From contig NZ_JAGSPA010000002.1 in NCBI RefSeq assembly GCF_019204005.1, forward strand, positions 248,001 through 312,000: 64,000 nucleotides of DNA, given 5' to 3'. Shown here piece by piece: positions 2,449-56,871 of this stretch. This DNA is from Pacificimonas pallii (lineage in GTDB: Bacteria; Pseudomonadota; Alphaproteobacteria; Sphingomonadales; Sphingomonadaceae). How positions within the stretch are numbered: position 1 is the first letter of the stretch; every line of letters begins with the position of its first letter. Below the pieces are notes generated by a model that ran no database searches, was not told where the DNA came from, and was given only the letters and a program-made list of their open reading frames with translations. The position numbers and the translations under genes were made by a program.

Positions 2449-3861
2449 ATGGCCAATAAAGCATCCGACATTCTGAAGATGATCAAGGAAAAGGACATTG
2501 AATGGGTGGATATCCGCTTTACCGATCTGCGCGGCAAGTGGCAGCATCTTGGCATGGTATCGGATGTCGTGGACGAGGATATGCTGTCCGATGGCTTCAT
2601 GTTCGACGGTTCGTCCATTGCCGGCTGGAAGGCCATCAACGAGTCCGACATGATCCTCATGCCGGATCTCGATTCCGTCTATTTTGATCCGTTCAGCGCG
2701 ACGCCGATGATGATCGTGTTCTGCGATGTCGTCGAACCGTCGACGGGCGAGCTTTATGAAAGCGACCCGCGGTCCGTTGCGAAACGCGCCGAAGCCTATG
2801 TGGGTCAGCTGGGCATTGGCGATAAGGTTTTCATCGGTCCCGAGGCTGAGTTCTTCTGCTTCGACGATGTGCGGTTCTCGTCGGGCTATGACCATAGTTT
2901 CTATCACCTCGACGACATCGAGCTGCCAACCAACACCGGCAGGGTCTATGAAGAGGGCAATTACGCTCACCGTCCGCGTGCCAAGGGTGGCTATTTCCCA
3001 GTCGCGCCGGTCGATCCCGCGCATGATCTGCGGTCGGAAATGGTCTCGACCATGATGGAAATGGGCTTGCCGATGGACAAGCATCACCACGAAGTGGGCG
3101 CGGCGCAGCACGAACTTGGCATGATGTTCGGCGAACTCGTCGAAACCGCGGATCGCATGCAGATTTACAAATATGTCGTGCACAATGTCGCCCACGCTTA
3201 TGGCAAGACGGCGACGTTCATGCCGAAGCCGATCGCGGAGGACAATGGCTCGGGAATGCACACGCATATCTCGATCTGGGACGGCAAGAAGAACACCTTT
3301 GCTGGCGACGGCTATGCTGGCCTGTCGGAAACGGCGCTGCATTTCATCGGCGGCGTCCTGAAGCACGCCAAGGCGGTGAATGCGTTCACGAACCCGGCGA
3401 CGAACAGCTATAAGCGTCTCGTCCCTGGTTTCGAAGCGCCCGTACTGCTGGCATATTCCAGCCGCAACCGCTCCGCGTCATGCCGGATTCCCTACGGCAC
3501 GGGCGAGAAAAGCCGCCGCGCGGAATTCCGCTTCCCGGACGCGCTTGCAAACCCCTATCTGGCCTATACGGCGATCCTGATGGCCGGTCTTGATGGTATC
3601 GAGAACCGCATCGACCCGGGTCAGCCGATGGATAAAAACCTGTACGACCTGCCACCAAAGCAGTTGAAGCGCGTGCCGACAGTCGCCAGTTCGCTGCGCG
3701 AAGCCCTCAGCGCGCTCGACAAGAACCGCAAGATTTTCACGCGCGGCGGTGTGTTTTCCGAAACACTTATAGACAGTTACATCAATCTGAAGATGGAAGA
3801 GGTCCTGCGCTGGGAAATGGCACCGGCGCCTGTCGAGTTCGACATGTACTATTCCGGCTGA
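2449..3861 (+). CDS. glnA: Type I glutamine synthetase
   Basis: A 470-aa GSI-beta dodecamer subunit that makes glutamine from glutamate, ammonia and ATP. The normal family length is matched. The N-terminal DIRFTDLRGKWQH, the metal-binding EAEFF, the HHEVGAAQHE and NGSGMHTH blocks, and the NRSASCRIPY substrate region are all seen. The adenylylation site Tyr399 lies in MDKNLYDLPP, so activity should be switched off by GlnE-type adenylylation under PII control. The GAGAGGACC Shine-Dalgarno sequence precedes the ATG. It is the last gene of the glnBA operon and is followed by a strong hairpin. Confidence 0.98.
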   Translation: MANKASDILKMIKEKDIEWVDIRFTDLRGKWQHLGMVSDVVDEDMLSDGFMFDGSSIAGWKAINESDMILMPDLDSVYFDPFSATPMMIVFCDVVEPSTGELYESDPRSVAKRAEAYVGQLGIGDKVFIGPEAEFFCFDDVRFSSGYDHSFYHLDDIELPTNTGRVYEEGNYAHRPRAKGGYFPVAPVDPAHDLRSEMVSTMMEMGLPMDKHHHEVGAAQHELGMMFGELVETADRMQIYKYVVHNVAHAYGKTATFMPKPIAEDNGSGMHTHISIWDGKKNTFAGDGYAGLSETALHFIGGVLKHAKAVNAFTNPATNSYKRLVPGFEAPVLLAYSSRNRSASCRIPYGTGEKSRRAEFRFPDALANPYLAYTAILMAGLDGIENRIDPGQPMDKNLYDLPPKQLKRVPTVASSLREALSALDKNRKIFTRGGVFSETLIDSYINLKMEEVLRWEMAPAPVEFDMYYSG

Positions 3862-49948: not shown

Positions 49949-51808
49949 ATGAATATGATGCGCCGTTTAACCGCCTTTTTCGCCCTGCCGCTCATCGCCG
50001 GACCCGTCCTTGCGGAGGATGTCCGCATGGATATCGTCGTCACAGCCGCGCGCACGGCCCCGCCTTCGCCCAGTGCGAATGTTCTCGGCGGAGCGGCATT
50101 GTCCCGGCACGCATCCGAGGATCTGACCGACAGTCTGGCCCGAGTCGCCGGTGTTCGCGCGTTTCGAAAAGGGGGCCTTGGCGGCAGCGCTTACGTCGCG
50201 CTGCGCGGCGGTGAGCCGAACTTCACCGCTGTCCTGATCGAGGGCGCGCTGGTCACGGACCCTACGAATACACAGGGCGGCGGCTTCGACTTCGCGCAGC
50301 TTGCGCCGTCGGTGGTCGAACGCATGACGATCGTCCCTGGGGCCTTGTCCGCGGTGCAGGGGGCAGAGGCGCTGTCCGGTGCGGTCGATATTCGCCTGAA
50401 ACGGCCGACCGAAAGCGTGTCAGCGGCGGGGCAGGGGCGTATTGATACGGATGGCGGCATCGCCTTCGACCTTTCCGCAGGCCTGCCGATAGGGGATGGC
50501 GGCCTTTTGATCGGCGGCAGCCATGCCGACCGGGAAAGCGAGGCGCAGCAATCCTTGCGGCGGCGGACCCAGGCACTGGCCCGTTTCAGCCAGAATGTCG
50601 GCGGCGTCGCTTTTGGTCTGACGGCCCTTCACAGCGATTTTCGGCGTACGGGTTTCCCAGAGGATAGCGGCGGCGTCCTCTTGGCCGCGAACCGCGAGCA
50701 GGAACGCCGGGAGGGCAATTTCACGCTGATCGCCGCCGACATCGTCCGTAGCGAGGGTGCGCTGCGCCCGGAACTCAGATTTAGTTGGTCACGGACCGCC
50801 GCCGATGTCGCGACGCCGGCCATCTTCCCCGGCACCTTCGATGCCGTGCCCGCCATCACCAGCGACACGGTTTTCCAGCGGTATCAGGTGGATGCGGGCA
50901 TTAATTGGGATGCGGTCGAAGCTCTCCGATTCGCCCTGGGCGGAAGTTTCGTACGGGAGGCGGGGGAGAATGTCGGTACGCTCGATATCGACTTCCCGTT
51001 GCCAACGGCCTTCGACATCAGCCGCGAGCGCGTCGGCGCCTATTTGGAGGGCACATTCGCGCCGGTTCCCTCCGTCAGCCTCACCGCCAGTGTCCGCCTG
51101 GACGACCCTGAGGAATTGAGCCCGGAATGGACTGTGCGGACGTCGGGGCGCTGGCGGGTCGCCGAGAATGGCCCGACCTTGTTTGCCTCATATGGAGAGG
51201 GGTATCGCCTGCCGAGCCTCTTTGCGCTCGCCTTTCCGCTGATCGCCAACCCCGACCTCAGGCCGGAACGTAGCCGTAGCTGGGAAGCAGGCGTTTCCCA
51301 GAAGGTCGGCAGCGGCACTGTCACGCTCAGCCTGTTCGACACGCGCTACACGGACCTCATCGACTTCGAGCCCGCGCTGTTCACCAATGTGAATCGCGCC
51401 CGGGTCGACACACGCGGCGCGGAAGCCAGGGGTGACCTGACCCTGGGCGCATGGCGGCTGGGCGCCAGCCTGTCCTATCTTGATATCGACGTGGCGGAAG
51501 GACAGTCACAGCTGCGCAGCCGCCCTGAGTGGCAGGGCAGTCTCGGCGTTTCGCGTGAATGGGACAATGGTCTGGCGGCATCGCTGACGCTCCTTGGCGT
51601 CGCCGACAGTTTCGATGCATCGATCCCGACGGGCCTTGTCGAGCTTGACGGCTTCGTGACGATCGATGCCGCCCTCACCGTGCCGCTGCATAAGGGCGTT
51701 GCCCTCAGGCTCGACGCACGCAACCTGCTGGATGAAGACTATCAGGAAAGTGTCGGCGTTCCCGCGCTCGGGATCACCGGCAGCGCGGGCATCGTGTTCG
51801 GTTTCTAG
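49949..51808 (+). CDS. TonB-dependent outer-membrane receptor
   Basis: 619 aa. A signal peptide (about 1-22, ending VLAED) leads to a TonB-box-like MDIVVTAAR. The plug domain has VAGVRAFRKGGLGGSAYVALRGGEPNFTAVLIEGALV and VERMTIVPGALSAVQGAEALSGAVDI. The 22-strand barrel ends with a terminal Phe (GSAGIVFGF). It imports a large ligand, possibly a metal chelate, B12-like cofactor or oligosaccharide. No cobalamin riboswitch or Fur site is seen upstream. Its start is close to the divergent PQQ dehydrogenase, which may hint at a shared sugar substrate. Confidence 0.93.
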   Translation: MNMMRRLTAFFALPLIAGPVLAEDVRMDIVVTAARTAPPSPSANVLGGAALSRHASEDLTDSLARVAGVRAFRKGGLGGSAYVALRGGEPNFTAVLIEGALVTDPTNTQGGGFDFAQLAPSVVERMTIVPGALSAVQGAEALSGAVDIRLKRPTESVSAAGQGRIDTDGGIAFDLSAGLPIGDGGLLIGGSHADRESEAQQSLRRRTQALARFSQNVGGVAFGLTALHSDFRRTGFPEDSGGVLLAANREQERREGNFTLIAADIVRSEGALRPELRFSWSRTAADVATPAIFPGTFDAVPAITSDTVFQRYQVDAGINWDAVEALRFALGGSFVREAGENVGTLDIDFPLPTAFDISRERVGAYLEGTFAPVPSVSLTASVRLDDPEELSPEWTVRTSGRWRVAENGPTLFASYGEGYRLPSLFALAFPLIANPDLRPERSRSWEAGVSQKVGSGTVTLSLFDTRYTDLIDFEPALFTNVNRARVDTRGAEARGDLTLGAWRLGASLSYLDIDVAEGQSQLRSRPEWQGSLGVSREWDNGLAASLTLLGVADSFDASIPTGLVELDGFVTIDAALTVPLHKGVALRLDARNLLDEDYQESVGVPALGITGSAGIVFGF

Positions 51809-52989
51809 CGGCCTGCCAGACGCTCATAGACTGGGATGTAGTTCTGTACGGAGCGATCCCAGTTTCGCGCCTCGGCGACCCAGGTCTTCGCCGTTCTGAT
51901 GCGTTGCGGCCATGATGCGCGATCTTCGAACATCGCAATCAGCGCTTCGGCCGCCGCATCGACATCGCCTGCGGTGAACAGCGTTCCCGTCACGCCGTCC
52001 TCAATCAGTTCGCGGTGGCCGCCAACGTCGCTCGCGGCGACCATCTTCTCCTGCGCCATGGCCTCCAGCGGCTTTAGCGGCGTCACGAGCTCGGTCAGCC
52101 GCATTGGCTTTCGTGGGTAGGCGAGGATATCTACGAGCGAATAATAGCGCTCGACGTCGCTATGCGGCACGCGGCCGGTGAAGATCACACGGTGCGGCTC
52201 GGGCAGGGCCGCGGCCTGCGCCTTCAGCGCCGCTTCCCTCGGGCCGCCGCCCACCAGCAGCAGCCTCGCCTTCGGTCTTGCGGCGGCGATCTTCGGCATG
52301 GCGGCGATCAGATCGTCCAGCCCTTCATAATCATAGAACGATCCCAGAAATCCGATGGTATCCGCGTCGCTCAGGCCGAGTTCTTCGGCAAGTACATCGT
52401 CGCGCGGCCCCGGCGTGCCGAACTGCGACAGGTCGACCGCATTCGGGATCGAGAATAATTTATCCTCTGAAATACCGCGCGTCTTGAGGTCGTGAAGCAG
52501 CCCCTCGCAGATTGCGCCGACGGCATCCGCCTGGCGGCAGGCGGACGTTTCCATCGCTTTGGTCATGCGAAACTTGAAATCGCCTTCCGTTCCCGTGCCA
52601 TTGCCGACGGCGGCATCCTCCCAGAATGCGCGGATTTCATATACGATGGGCAGACCGGCCTTCCGCGCTGCCTGGCGCGCGCCGAGAAATGTCAGGACGG
52701 GAGAGTGGCAGTGAACGATGTCCGGCCGCTCGCTTTCGATAAGCTGGGCGACCTTGCGTCCTGTCGCGCGGATTTCACCGACCAGCGGGATCGGACCGGC
52801 GGCCCCCGCACGGTGAAATGTCAGTCCCTCCGCCGTCTCCGGATCAGGCCCTTCTTTCATATGCCGCGGGCTCGTGACCATGACAGGTTCCCAGCCCAGC
52901 CGCTTCTGTCCTTCGATGAGCGCGCGCGTGCGAAAGGAATAACCGCTGTGCAGCGGCAGCGAGTGGTCGAGAACGTGGAGGATCTTCAC
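51805..52989 (-). CDS. Exosortase-A-associated glycosyltransferase (GT4)
   Basis: A 394-aa GT-B enzyme. The N-terminal MKILHVLDHSLPLHSGYSFR matches the PEP-CTERM/exosortase A-associated family that makes exopolysaccharide. The C-terminal half has YDYEGLDDLIAAMPKI, LLLVGGGP, and the sugar-binding KPLEAMAQEKMVAASDVGGHRELIEDG. Its start overlaps the wecB stop as ATGA. It ends overlapping the end of the TonB receptor by four bases. The sugar is not known; the exosortase and its other genes are not in the window. Confidence 0.86.
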   Translation of the reverse strand: MKILHVLDHSLPLHSGYSFRTRALIEGQKRLGWEPVMVTSPRHMKEGPDPETAEGLTFHRAGAAGPIPLVGEIRATGRKVAQLIESERPDIVHCHSPVLTFLGARQAARKAGLPIVYEIRAFWEDAAVGNGTGTEGDFKFRMTKAMETSACRQADAVGAICEGLLHDLKTRGISEDKLFSIPNAVDLSQFGTPGPRDDVLAEELGLSDADTIGFLGSFYDYEGLDDLIAAMPKIAAARPKARLLLVGGGPREAALKAQAAALPEPHRVIFTGRVPHSDVERYYSLVDILAYPRKPMRLTELVTPLKPLEAMAQEKMVAASDVGGHRELIEDGVTGTLFTAGDVDAAAEALIAMFEDRASWPQRIRTAKTWVAEARNWDRSVQNYIPVYERLAGR

Positions 52990-54080
52990 GCCTTGGTGCG
53001 GGCCCTCAAGTCATCGACGCAGCGACTGGCGGTTCTGCCGTCCCAGAATTCAGGCTTGCGCGGCGCGGGGGCGTCGGCGGCGATGGCCGTTTCCAGTTCA
53101 TCCAGCAGCGTGTCAGGCGTGATGAGCCGATTTGTGCCCTGTTCAATCGTGATTGGCCGTTCGGTATTGTCGCGCAGGGTCAGGCACGGAATGCCAAGAT
53201 AGGTGGTTTCCTCCTGCAGACCGCCGCTATCGGTAATCACCAGCTGCGAATCCTTCATCAGCGACATGAAGGGCAGGTAGCTTTGCGGCGGCACAATCTG
53301 AATGCCCGCATCGGTCAGTGTCGTTTCCAGGCCGAACTCTTCCATGCGTCCCCTGGTGCGCGGGTGCATCGGGAAAATCAGCGGCAGGTGCTTCGCCGCC
53401 TTGGCCAGTTCGCCGCAAATCTTCGTGAACTTTTCCTTTTCATCCACATTTGACGGGCGGTGCATCGTGATGATGCCATAGCGGCCCGGCGTCAGCCCGA
53501 ATGTCCCGGCACTGTTTTCGGCGTCCAGCTTCGGGCGGATACGCTCCAGGCTGTCGAGCATGATGTTACCGACGCGCGACACGCGGGAAGCGGGAATGCC
53601 CTCCGCGGCAAGATTTTCATCGCCGTCGGGCGACGGTGTCCACATCACGTTGGACAGGACGTCGGTGACCAGTCGGTTAATTTCTTCCGGCATTTCCCGG
53701 TCGCCAGAGCGCAGTCCCGCCTCCAGATGGACGACCGGGATGTGCAGTTTCGCACCGACCATGGCGCAGGCCGCCGTGGAGTTCACGTCGCCGACGACAA
53801 TCAGCCAGTCGGGCCGCTGCTCCATCGCGATTTTCTCATAGGCGATCATGACGCTGCCGGTCTGCTCGGCATGCGTACCCGATCCGACGCCCATATGGTG
53901 ATTCGGACGCGGCAGGCCGAGATCCTCGAAAATGTCATCAGACATGTTCGCGTCATAATGCTGGCCCGTGTGGATCAGCACGGGTTCGAAATCCTGGGCC
54001 GCCGTCAGGGCATGCCACAATGGCGCAACCTTCATGAAATTGGGGCGGGCAGCGGCGATCAGGTGAACGATTGCGGGCAT
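52986..54080 (-). CDS. wecB: UDP-N-acetylglucosamine 2-epimerase (non-hydrolysing)
   Basis: A 364-aa enzyme that makes UDP-ManNAc for surface polysaccharides. Family motifs include AARPNFMKVAPLWHAL, LIHTGQHYDANMS, VVGDVNSTAACAM, HLEAGLRSGDREMPEEINR, ITMHRPSNVDE and TDSGGLQEE with the active-site Ser/Gly pocket. It is coupled to the downstream glycosyltransferase. The upstream side is a divergent promoter region facing the small ORF and the ligase. Confidence 0.95.
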   Translation of the reverse strand: MPAIVHLIAAARPNFMKVAPLWHALTAAQDFEPVLIHTGQHYDANMSDDIFEDLGLPRPNHHMGVGSGTHAEQTGSVMIAYEKIAMEQRPDWLIVVGDVNSTAACAMVGAKLHIPVVHLEAGLRSGDREMPEEINRLVTDVLSNVMWTPSPDGDENLAAEGIPASRVSRVGNIMLDSLERIRPKLDAENSAGTFGLTPGRYGIITMHRPSNVDEKEKFTKICGELAKAAKHLPLIFPMHPRTRGRMEEFGLETTLTDAGIQIVPPQSYLPFMSLMKDSQLVITDSGGLQEETTYLGIPCLTLRDNTERPITIEQGTNRLITPDTLLDELETAIAADAPAPRKPEFWDGRTASRCVDDLRARTKA

Positions 54081-54189
54081 GAAGCGCTAGCTTTCCTCAT
54101 TGAAATCGCGCCCCCTATGCGGGCGCGGATGGATACTGTAAACCTCGTGGCAACATAGCGCGGGTATGACGCCCTCGTCTTAAACTTTT

Positions 54190-54363
54190 GTGGATCAACC
54201 GCTCGTGATCGATAATTTGGCTCTGCTAGGTGCCCATCTCATGATGGGAATCATGCTTTGGAAGATCATTGTCCGTGAGGAAAAGGCCCGCGATGCGGCC
54301 TTTCAGAAGGGTCTGAAGAAGCAGCGCGGCCATGTCAAAGGCCTGCGGAAACGTCCCCGCTGA
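54190..54363 (+). CDS. Small (57 aa) single-helix membrane ORF ahead of the ligase
   Basis: A GTG-initiated frame of 57 residues ends one base before the GTG of the O-glycosylation ligase. It encodes an N-terminal hydrophobic segment (NLALLGAHLMMGIMLWKIIV, about residues 9-28) and a strongly basic C-terminus (KKQRGHVKGLRKRPR), the layout of a small inner-membrane protein with a cytoplasmic tail. No strong Shine-Dalgarno sequence is seen, and internal GTG/ATG starts are possible. The abutment with the next gene and the charge pattern support it as real. I do not recognise the family. Confidence 0.55.
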   Translation: MDQPLVIDNLALLGAHLMMGIMLWKIIVREEKARDAAFQKGLKKQRGHVKGLRKRPR

Positions 54364-55776
54364 GTGCGCGACCTCCTTCTCCTCGGCATCCTCTTCGCGT
54401 TCATTTTCGCCTCCTTCCGCGTGCCCTATTTCATGGCGCTCGGTTATCTCTGGGTCGACTTTCTGCAACCCCAGCGAATTGGCTATTATGTTTTCAACCA
54501 GCTGCCAGTGGCGATGATTTTAGGCGTCGGAGCGTTGATCACATTTCTCCTTTTCGACAAGGAAAAGAAGCTGCGCTTTGGTCTGTTGCAGGCCCTCGTC
54601 ACGTTATTCGTCGTCTATGCCGTGGTAGCGACATATGGGTGGGCGGTCGTACCATCGGGTATTGAAAAGCTCGATTCGATGTCGAAAGCTCTGCTTTTCT
54701 CCGCATTTTTGCCGATGATTTTAACGACGCGCCTGCGTATTGAAGCTGCGCTTGCCGTGATCCTATGCTCTATATCGGCCATAACGCTATCCGCTGGCGG
54801 CAAAGTACTCGTCGGCGGTGGTGGCTACGGTGCGTCCCTGTTCCTCGTAAATAACAACACAGGTCTTTACGAGGCATCAACGCTTTCTACGACGGCACTG
54901 GCGCTGGTGCCGATGTTGTGGTGGTTTTACAAGCATAATAGCTTTGTCAGGGCCAGCAAGTTTACTTTAATTATTACGCTTGGCATCATCCTCTCCATGT
55001 GCCTCGTGACTATTGGCGCGGAGGCCCGTACCGGGCTTCTCTCAATGGGTATGCTCGGCTTTTTGTTATGGCTGCGGAGCAGCAAGAAGATCATTTCGGG
55101 TGTTGCGTTGGGGGTGTTGCTGGTTGGATCAATACCATTTTTGCCAGCTAGCTTCACCGAGCGCATGTCGACGCTTGAGACTTTTAACTCCGATAAATCG
55201 GCGTCTACGCGGATTGCTGTTTGGAAATGGACACTGGATTACGTTTCTGAAAACCCGTTTGGTGGCGGCTTTCATATCTATAAGATAAATAATGTTACGG
55301 TCGAAATGTCCGAGACGACTGTTGAAGGCAATACGACGGATAGGGTTGATTTTTCAGTAAAAGATCGAGCTCGTGCGTTTCATTCAGCCTATTTTGAGGT
55401 GCTCGGTGAACTTGGCATACCAGGGCTGGCAATCTGGCTGAGCATCGTCACCGGGGCTTTATACAAAGCTCGTGCCGTCGTTAAGCGAGAGCGCAAATTG
55501 GTGACTCCCCTCTTAAATACGGAAACCGGTGAAGAACGAGAAATGTCGGACTGGGCACGGGATTTCGGGCGATCCATGTCAATCACCATTCTTGTCTATC
55601 TCACGGGCGCACTTTTTGTCGGCATTGCGACCCAGCCTACGCTGTACACAATGATCTCCTTATTGGTTTCGGTCTGGTACCTAAGAAGCGATCACCTTGC
55701 GAATGTGATCGAAAGAGGGCGCAAGGCATCGTTCAAGAATGCGCACATAGTACGTCCGAGCACAGTGCTCGCTTAG
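54364..55776 (+). CDS. Exosortase-A-associated O-glycosylation ligase (Wzy/WaaL-like)
   Basis: A 470-aa inner-membrane protein with about 11 helices. The N-terminal VPYFMALGYLWVDFLQPQRIGYY and central NNNTGLYEASTLSTTALALVPML match the exosortase-associated Wzy/WaaL-like family. A large periplasmic loop with ARTGLLSMGMLGF precedes SASTRIAVWKWTLDYVSENPFGGG and FHSAYFEVLGELGIPG, the Wzy_C pattern. It should polymerise or attach glycan. It is on the strand opposite to wecB/GT4 and starts with GTG right after the small ORF, so translation is likely coupled. Confidence 0.85.
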   Translation: MRDLLLLGILFAFIFASFRVPYFMALGYLWVDFLQPQRIGYYVFNQLPVAMILGVGALITFLLFDKEKKLRFGLLQALVTLFVVYAVVATYGWAVVPSGIEKLDSMSKALLFSAFLPMILTTRLRIEAALAVILCSISAITLSAGGKVLVGGGGYGASLFLVNNNTGLYEASTLSTTALALVPMLWWFYKHNSFVRASKFTLIITLGIILSMCLVTIGAEARTGLLSMGMLGFLLWLRSSKKIISGVALGVLLVGSIPFLPASFTERMSTLETFNSDKSASTRIAVWKWTLDYVSENPFGGGFHIYKINNVTVEMSETTVEGNTTDRVDFSVKDRARAFHSAYFEVLGELGIPGLAIWLSIVTGALYKARAVVKRERKLVTPLLNTETGEEREMSDWARDFGRSMSITILVYLTGALFVGIATQPTLYTMISLLVSVWYLRSDHLANVIERGRKASFKNAHIVRPSTVLA

Positions 55777-55785
55777 GGTCGCCAT

Positions 55786-56871
55786 TTATGTGCGCGATTC
55801 GCCAGGTCTCGGAATTGCCGACGTGCGGCCATATGATAGCAATTTCGACTGGGCGGGGCGCTCTACAAAATGGTACAATAACACCGAGCTAATTGCTACG
55901 GCAACCAGATAGAAGATAATTTCCATTTCGCTCATTATACCTGAAGCGTCTACGAAAACGAGCTTTGTAAGTGTAAGTAGCAGGTAGTGACTTAGATATG
56001 TTGCGTAGGATACTTCACCAATATAGACGAGTGGTTTCCATTGTAGCCAATTTGTGTGTTGCCATCCGCACATCCACCAGATGATCGCGCACCACAAAAG
56101 AGGCACAACGGGTGTTTCCGGCTGAACACTGAGAGCAAGAACACACGATATCACAAGGACTAATGCGGGAACGCTGCTTTTCGAGGTCATAAGGCCGCGC
56201 CGATAAAATTCACTCAGGCACATCCCTATAGAGAATTGTGTGAGGCAGCGTGGAATTCCGGTCCACGGAATACCTCCGGCAAAATCGGCGTCTAGCCACC
56301 AAAAGCTTAAATATAACAATGTCATCATAAATATAATGAGAGCGAAGATTATGATGTTACTACGGCGATGTAGCGCAAGCATTGCTAGCAAGAACGGAAA
56401 GAGGAGGTAGGCAGCGAATTCTACGGAAATCGACCAAGCCGGGACGTTCCAAGCTAACTGATTTAAAAATCCCCAGTTCTGTACAAGAAATATGGATGCG
56501 ATAAAGTAACCGGGTTGGTACGATGAAGTAAATTCAGATCCATATAAATGTGCCGATAAGCCATATGCGCCATAAATTAATAATATAAATGCATGCAAAG
56601 GATAAATCCGAGCAAATCTTTTTTTCATAAAAGACCGCATGCTCTGAAATGATATGGAAACTCGGTCACAATAGTTTAAGTATATTACAAATCCAGAAAG
56701 AACGAAGAACATATCTACAGCGAGATTGCCGTATGAAACAACATTGATTAGTGTTTCTGGCAGATAGGGTACCAGAAACCGCCGGAGATGGTAGAAAACG
56801 ACGAACCAAGCCGCGATTCCGCGTAAGCTGGTCAACTGATCGATGCTGCTGCGCGCTGCTATACTCGTCAT
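55786..56871 (-). CDS. Acyltransferase family 3 membrane protein
   Basis: A 361-aa protein with about 10 helices. SLRGIAAWFVVFYHLRRFL contains the catalytic His of the acyltransferase-3 fold, followed by GNLAVDMFFVLSGFVIY and the AWSISVEFAAYLLFPF motif. It O-acylates surface sugars in related systems. The gene is clearly AT-richer than its surroundings and sits beside the glycan ligase, so it is a probable horizontally acquired decoration gene. It is convergent with the ligase with nine bases between. Confidence 0.9.
   Translation of the reverse strand: MTSIAARSSIDQLTSLRGIAAWFVVFYHLRRFLVPYLPETLINVVSYGNLAVDMFFVLSGFVIYLNYCDRVSISFQSMRSFMKKRFARIYPLHAFILLIYGAYGLSAHLYGSEFTSSYQPGYFIASIFLVQNWGFLNQLAWNVPAWSISVEFAAYLLFPFLLAMLALHRRSNIIIFALIIFMMTLLYLSFWWLDADFAGGIPWTGIPRCLTQFSIGMCLSEFYRRGLMTSKSSVPALVLVISCVLALSVQPETPVVPLLWCAIIWWMCGWQHTNWLQWKPLVYIGEVSYATYLSHYLLLTLTKLVFVDASGIMSEMEIIFYLVAVAISSVLLYHFVERPAQSKLLSYGRTSAIPRPGESRT

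Follow-up and report, generated by a model that had tools for sequence, protein, structure and literature searches.

Genes at the locus

The window analysed here, a 64,000-nucleotide stretch of a Pacificimonas pallii contig, contains a short open reading frame immediately ahead of a gene for an exosortase A-associated ligase (Table 1). An earlier note had placed this frame at 54190-54363, ending right before the ligase, and direct reading of the sequence bore this out. The frame opens with a GTG, runs for 57 codons and closes with a TGA at 54361-54363. The ligase follows directly, its GTG standing at 54364 with zero intervening bases. The single hydrophobic segment described in that note was also found. 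A pattern scan of positions 54000-54500, which other promoter types would escape, revealed no sigma-70-type promoter or terminator.

The ligase matched TIGR03097 (PEP_O_lig_1) over positions 1-405 of 408 with an E-value of 1.1e-47, although its 162.8 bits miss the curated cut-off of 188.1; it exceeded the cut-offs for PF19358 and PF04932. The predicted role of ligases in exosortase systems is either the attachment of sugar chains to sorted proteins or the construction of the matrix polysaccharide, and we know of no established mechanism for them. At 121 of 136 loci a homologue of the glycosyltransferase Stp3 lies divergently within the 1.5 kb upstream, and a WecB-type epimerase occupies the place that it has in the window in 7 of the 136. 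In a few genomes (the window, L294 and L296) an acyltransferase-3 gene stands beside the small gene or the ligase, and its product might modify the same glycan.

Table 1. Features of the window around the small gene, with the corresponding frames of Qipengyuania citrea locus L289 in its own coordinates.
Feature	Position	Strand	Basis or remark
PEP-CTERM/XrtA system glycosyltransferase Stp3	51805..52989	-	TIGR04063; beyond the epimerase
UDP-GlcNAc 2-epimerase, WecB family, divergent	52986..54080	-	TIGR00236 over cut-off
Five extra codons of the mechanical frame	54190..54204	+	unconserved in relatives; conservation begins at codon 54205
Small membrane-protein gene, 52 aa	54205..54363	+	GTG start, TGA stop; most likely true extent; start and residues conserved in 131 homologues, dN/dS in relatives, profile match E 6.0e-12 (same sequence is 1 of the profile's 52 rows)
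Predicted transmembrane part, about residues 4-22	54214..54270	+	sequence read by eye; AlphaFold2 helix supports it
Conserved His, residue 11	54235-54237	+	H in 128/131 aligned rows; within the transmembrane part
Exosortase A-associated ligase, DUF5935 + Wzy_C, WaaL-like fold (modelled)	54364..55776	+	TIGR03097, PF19358, PF04932, 7tpg
Acyltransferase-3 family protein, convergent with the ligase	55786..56871	-	PF01757; homologue adjoins the small gene in G091
Q. citrea L289: listed antisense frame	2742-2897	-	
Q. citrea L289: real small gene	2769-2954	+	

Conservation in the family and order

We refer to ligases with a strong match (E below 1e-70) as the close form. Of 199 Sphingomonadaceae genomes, 136 gave a ligase match, and 132 of these carry the close form. 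A profile of the small protein was built from the frames upstream of close-form ligases (52 rows). By this profile the small gene lies on the right strand and no more than 400 nt from the ligase in 131 of 132 close-form loci; the earlier note had named missing conservation in relatives as a refutation, and this check did not refute the frame. When whole genomes were searched, the small gene was detected in exactly the 132 close-form genomes of the 199, each with an E-value of 4.2e-6 or better, values that are optimistic because the profile was built partly from these sequences. The remaining 67 family genomes gave only two matches (E 6.7e-4 and 0.0058), both in genomes without the close-form ligase, and we read these as chance. 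The small gene and the close-form ligase also agreed exactly, 77/77, across 196 genomes sampled from the order; 39 of the 77 occur only in this second set and were unused in building the profile. Pooling both sets, all 171 distinct close-form genomes have the small gene and, the two chance matches excepted, neither gene occurs alone.

The frame was also recovered by a simple rule that asks for a one-helix open reading frame ending at the ligase start. Such a frame was present at 115 of the 132 loci, whereas Markov shuffles predict 0.33, and a stricter form of the rule found it at 37 of 44 family loci (every third locus sampled). By the one-helix rule, no such frame precedes the family's four weak ligases (G007, G040, G052 and G056). 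These results indicate that the frame is a real, conserved gene.

Start codon, selection and residue pattern

To locate the start, 131 relatives were aligned, anchored on the start codon nearest to the first column of the profile. The 12 preceding codons carry 0.3-0.9 bits of information each, and the first three codons of the aligned frame carry 2.9, 3.7 and 4.2 bits; a start codon at the first position is partly given by construction, and the upstream drop is not. Because conservation sets in abruptly at the start codon, which is the GTG at 54205 in the window, a start at 54190 is probably wrong. The true start is most likely 54205, with the five preceding codons probably forming an untranslated leader. 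The 57-residue extent reported before thus describes the open frame, and the likely protein has 52 residues. At the conserved position the 131 homologues use ATG (70), GTG (31) and TTG (30). A Shine-Dalgarno core lies ahead of the conserved start in 38 of the 131 homologues (13.4 expected); no clear core was found before 54205 in the window.

Selection was measured on non-overlapping pairs. The dN/dS ratio was below 1 in all 37 pairs with a finite value (median 0.25, up to 0.53), while the 38th pair, the window against G099, was saturated and gave no value. Differences at codon positions 1, 2 and 3 numbered 404, 316 and 748 over the 38 pairs, with the saturated pair included. The synonymous-site signal that had been named as a check on the frame is therefore present, and the small gene evolves under purifying selection at the protein level. 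The first 30 residues occupy consecutive alignment columns in the 131 sequences and follow the common pattern [MVL][IV]D-x-[FL]-[AST]-[LI]-x-x-x-H-x-L-x6-R-L-x-x-R-x-D-L-D-x-[DE]. Asp3 and His11 are each retained in 128 of 131, Arg20 in 119 and Asp28 in 117, and His11 falls inside the predicted helix.

The protein of the window is a divergent member of this group, in which His11 is kept, Arg20 is replaced by Lys, the DLD motif is lost and the tail is basic. The strongly basic tail had been reported in the earlier note; it is there in the window (net +9 for residues 24-52 of the 52-residue form), and the net charge is +4 to +9 in four examined members of the genus. It does not extend to the homologues at large, where the charge from residue 27 on has a median of -1 and a range of -8 to +10 (n=131). 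The basic tail is therefore peculiar to the genus of the window.

Position relative to the ligase and unlinked copies

At each of the 131 loci measured, the stop codon of the small gene fell within -18 to +11 relative to the start of the ligase. In 97 of these the two genes overlap, most commonly by 8 nt (78 loci) or 4 nt (14 loci), together 92 of the 131. The small gene adjoins the ligase in 169 of 171 genomes, and in 38 of 39 among the genomes found only in the order set. It is unlinked and intact in the two others, G327 (loci L293 and L294), where it lies 147 kb from the ligase, and G091 (loci L296 and L186), where the distance is 840 kb. The two rearrangements differ in the part that moved. 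In G327 the ligase remained beside Stp3 and the acyltransferase, and the small gene is the part that stands apart. In G091 the small gene remains beside Stp3, overlapping the start of an acyltransferase-3-like gene, and the ligase adjoins a CorA-like gene (sequence read by eye). Both unlinked copies retain His11 and the DLD motif.

Association with the ligase, XrtA and Stp3

Genomes in which the ligase and the exosortase XrtA do not coincide were examined for the small gene. It was absent from all six genomes with XrtA over its cut-off and no close-form ligase; of these, G007, G040, G052 and G056 have a weak ligase that belongs to a different type, and the assemblies of G116 and G143 are fragmented drafts. 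It was present in all nine close-form genomes without XrtA over the cut-off, among which G022, G117 and G135 are less than 90% complete and the XrtA match of G193 is partial. Presence of the small gene thus follows the ligase and not XrtA, in a test limited by genome quality and ligase type. Three members of the window's genus (G031, G114 and G174) have a close-form ligase, are reported as 100% complete and give a best XrtA match far below the cut-off; their exosortase may be of another type.

A mirror-tree analysis of 120 genomes gave a partial correlation of 0.316 between the small protein and the ligase given Stp3, and of 0.017 between the small protein and Stp3 given the ligase. Mutual information did not separate the two pairs, the top z of 8.3 for the small protein with the ligase being hardly above the 7.4 for the small protein with Stp3. 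Presence of the small gene was then mapped on a tree of 80 ligases, which included 16 of the 132 close-form family ligases, the 4 weak family ligases and 22 ligases from the 24 counted non-family alphaproteobacterial loci. The label required 5 changes, against a mean of 24.4 for shuffled labels, and none of 500 shuffles was as low; in this tree G091 was labelled positive despite its unlinked copy, and the labels of G224, G230 and G273, whose frames fail the one-helix rule, were set by eye. The small gene therefore tracks a ligase subtype.

Occurrence outside the family

Some related ligases, in two Vibrionaceae as well as among other Alphaproteobacteria, are preceded by comparable one-helix frames of 29-53 residues. 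The one-helix rule was loosened after some of the sequences had been seen, so the following counts outside the family are not blind. Of 27 non-family genomes of the class with a TIGR03097 match, 25 loci were read and 24 counted; a small frame was found at two (G455 and G549) and none at 22, so the small frame is not a general requirement of such ligases. Other families of the order had such a frame at 2 of 20 loci, taken from 59 genomes with weak ligases. Outside the class it occurred at 5 of 16 loci, against 0.02 expected (16 loci read of 24), and both Vibrionaceae plasmid ligases are preceded by one, which in Vibrio alfacsensis has 29 residues and a 4-nt overlap. The stricter earlier rule, which allowed no D, E, K, R, N or Q in the helix core, gave 2/24, 1/20 and 1/16 loci for the three groups; it missed forms from outside the class and was replaced for that reason.

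The ligases of G455 and G549 group with those of the window's family and with G819 on the tree, and their small frames give weak profile matches (E 1.2e-4 and 0.002). Both frames were missed when 240 genomes of the class were searched with the profile, and surfaced only by inspection upstream of the ligases, so a profile search alone under-counts distant forms. That search returned four non-family matches (G560, G396, G381 and G360; E 0.001-0.004), which we read as chance; in G396 the match and the ligase are on different contigs, and the remaining three genomes gave no match to the ligase. From outside the class, G819 (E 0.025) and G592 (E 0.74) fail the inclusion threshold. With such sub-threshold scores, the forms from outside the class may be homologous to the family's small protein or merely alike. 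Near the place of His11, reading by eye showed Asp, Glu or Asn in five of the out-of-class forms, Gly in both Vibrionaceae forms and Ser in G549; the histidine is therefore not general in the helix. In another family of the order, weak ligases (G251, G273 and G221; loci L271, L272 and L279) are preceded by unrelated-looking one-helix frames of 46-49 residues with a K-E-D tail.

Structural models

AlphaFold2 modelled the small protein alone (52 sequences) as a single helix spanning residues 3-48. When the small protein and the ligase were modelled as one read-through chain, from an alignment that excluded G023 (two stops), the helix spanned residues 2-34 with a pLDDT near 90 over the first 30 residues and under 50 for residues 37-52, and the pTM was 0.89; this model does not in itself show an interface. 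The modelled ligase resembles WaaL (7tpg; Z 22.5, rmsd 4.8 over 369 residues) and, more remotely, FtsW/RodA (Z 10.9-12.5), with all other rows under Z 5. Foldseek alone also ranked WaaL first (E 0.001). Sequence identity to WaaL is 15%, and a sequence search with the ligase profile gave no solved chain at E 1.

WaaL is described as working on its own, with no small subunit. SEDS enzymes depend for their activity on a partner protein, which packs on them through its one transmembrane helix and activates them. The helix bundle of RodA/FtsW (6pl5, 8tj3, 8bh1 and 8p1u) is similar to that of the modelled ligase, and a SEDS enzyme with its partner helix is the closest working analogy for the ligase and the small protein. 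The SEDS partner is a large penicillin-binding protein whose helix has the orientation opposite to the one proposed here for a protein of 52 residues, and the small-protein profile found none of the four SEDS entries at E 10. The best solved-structure match of that profile (54205-54360) was the start of cornichon (9ovv; E 0.0018 over 28 residues). Cornichons are eukaryotic multi-helix proteins which share with the small protein one helix that leads into an acidic stretch (D-E-L in cornichons). None of the 52 small-protein members matched a cornichon family in Pfam at E 0.1, and this short, membrane-biased likeness was set aside as chance or convergence.

Discussion

The small protein is probably a single-helix subunit belonging to this exosortase A-associated, WaaL-like ligase subtype. 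As a single-pass inner-membrane protein of 52 residues it would serve the ligase encoded downstream, and the two would be produced together by translational coupling. By the positive-inside rule, the helix is predicted to insert with its short acidic N-terminus outside and the R..R..DLD.E tail, basic in the window, inside. It may pack on the helix bundle of the ligase with the histidine, in the outer part of the helix, facing the ligase, and the tail could hold the cytoplasmic face of the ligase or upstream sugar-handling enzymes. The small partner of the ligase suggested in the earlier note gains support from the co-occurrence of the two genes, the overlap, the tracking of a ligase subtype and the retention of unlinked copies, from which we infer the physical partnership. 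Because the small gene is in every examined family genome with the close form, it is likely an overlooked working part of the ligase. The loss of Arg20 (to Lys) and of the DLD motif in the window's own protein counts against a subunit.

The small protein could instead act in the XrtA/exopolysaccharide pathway for another component, such as Stp3, chain-length or export proteins, or the acyltransferase, with its coupling to the ligase incidental. The frequent divergent Stp3 homologue upstream is consistent with this, and another partner is possible because the small gene of G091 sits with Stp3 and the acyltransferase and not with the ligase, which moved. In G327, however, it is the small gene that lies away from Stp3 and the acyltransferase, from which the ligase did not part. 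Furthermore, Stp3 adds nothing in the mirror-tree once the ligase is accounted for, and presence follows the ligase rather than XrtA. A role for another component thus appears unlikely.

Less likely still is a membrane chaperone or degradation adaptor that would set the amount or insertion of the ligase and not stay as a lasting subunit. Its small size and conserved charged tail would suit such a role, and since the gene ends at the ligase start both proteins may be made in turn at one place; the conserved histidine within the membrane helix, however, suggests a specific and lasting contact. We regard as improbable a translational leader, whose translation would serve only to free the ligase's ribosome-binding site and adjust the ligase level, and whose peptide would be functionless. 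The overlap of stop and start is the usual geometry of coupling, and the scan of 54000-54500 for sigma-70-type promoter or terminator patterns was negative, yet a leader would not require amino-acid conservation or a low dN/dS, and the intact copies in G091 and G327, far from the ligase, disfavour a purely cis-acting element. Chance frames are plentiful in GC-rich genomes, and an antisense one is listed at this place in Q. citrea, but the third-position excess in frame, conservation that begins at the start codon and presence in every close-form genome make it scarcely credible that the frame is spurious and conserved as a by-product of constraint on another frame or the antisense strand.

Returning to a subunit of the ligase, the idea might be widened, tentatively and by analogy. 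WaaL-like ligases in the exosortase A systems of Alpha- and Gammaproteobacteria could include a class with a dedicated single-helix micro-subunit of 29-88 residues, often with a buried polar residue in the helix and a charged cytoplasmic tail, required for activity as the SEDS partner helix is and unnamed in annotation; we think this extension somewhat doubtful. The small frame is missing before 22 of the 24 non-family alphaproteobacterial members of TIGR03097/DUF5935, the family of the neighbouring ligase. If the tiny subunit is obligate, attempts to express or reconstitute the ligase alone could fail for that reason. With its 52 codons, its conserved membrane histidine and its value as a marker for a ligase subtype, the small gene offers a testable handle.

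The small protein matches no described Pfam or NCBIfam family over its cut-off. Searches with 52 members gave best E-values of 0.042 (Pfam) and 0.017 (NCBIfam), all under the cut-offs and with scattered unrelated names, each in one or two members. Passages from the 2006 PEP-CTERM paper (PMC1569441) and from the 2024 Sphingomonas exopolysaccharide paper (PMC11340318) do not mention a small ligase partner, and among the titles listed by searches of a library of openly licensed papers none was about one. Gene tables were taken from PLSDB, which is derived from RefSeq and is incomplete. The table of a Sphingomonas parapaucimobilis plasmid lists the small gene as a hypothetical protein with an 8-nt overlap with the ligase, and that of Vibrio alfacsensis lists nothing at the small frame. 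The Q. citrea plasmid is an example of a gene table that gives the wrong strand: an antisense 'hypothetical protein' (NCF85_RS16585) is listed over the small gene, and the true frame is unlisted.
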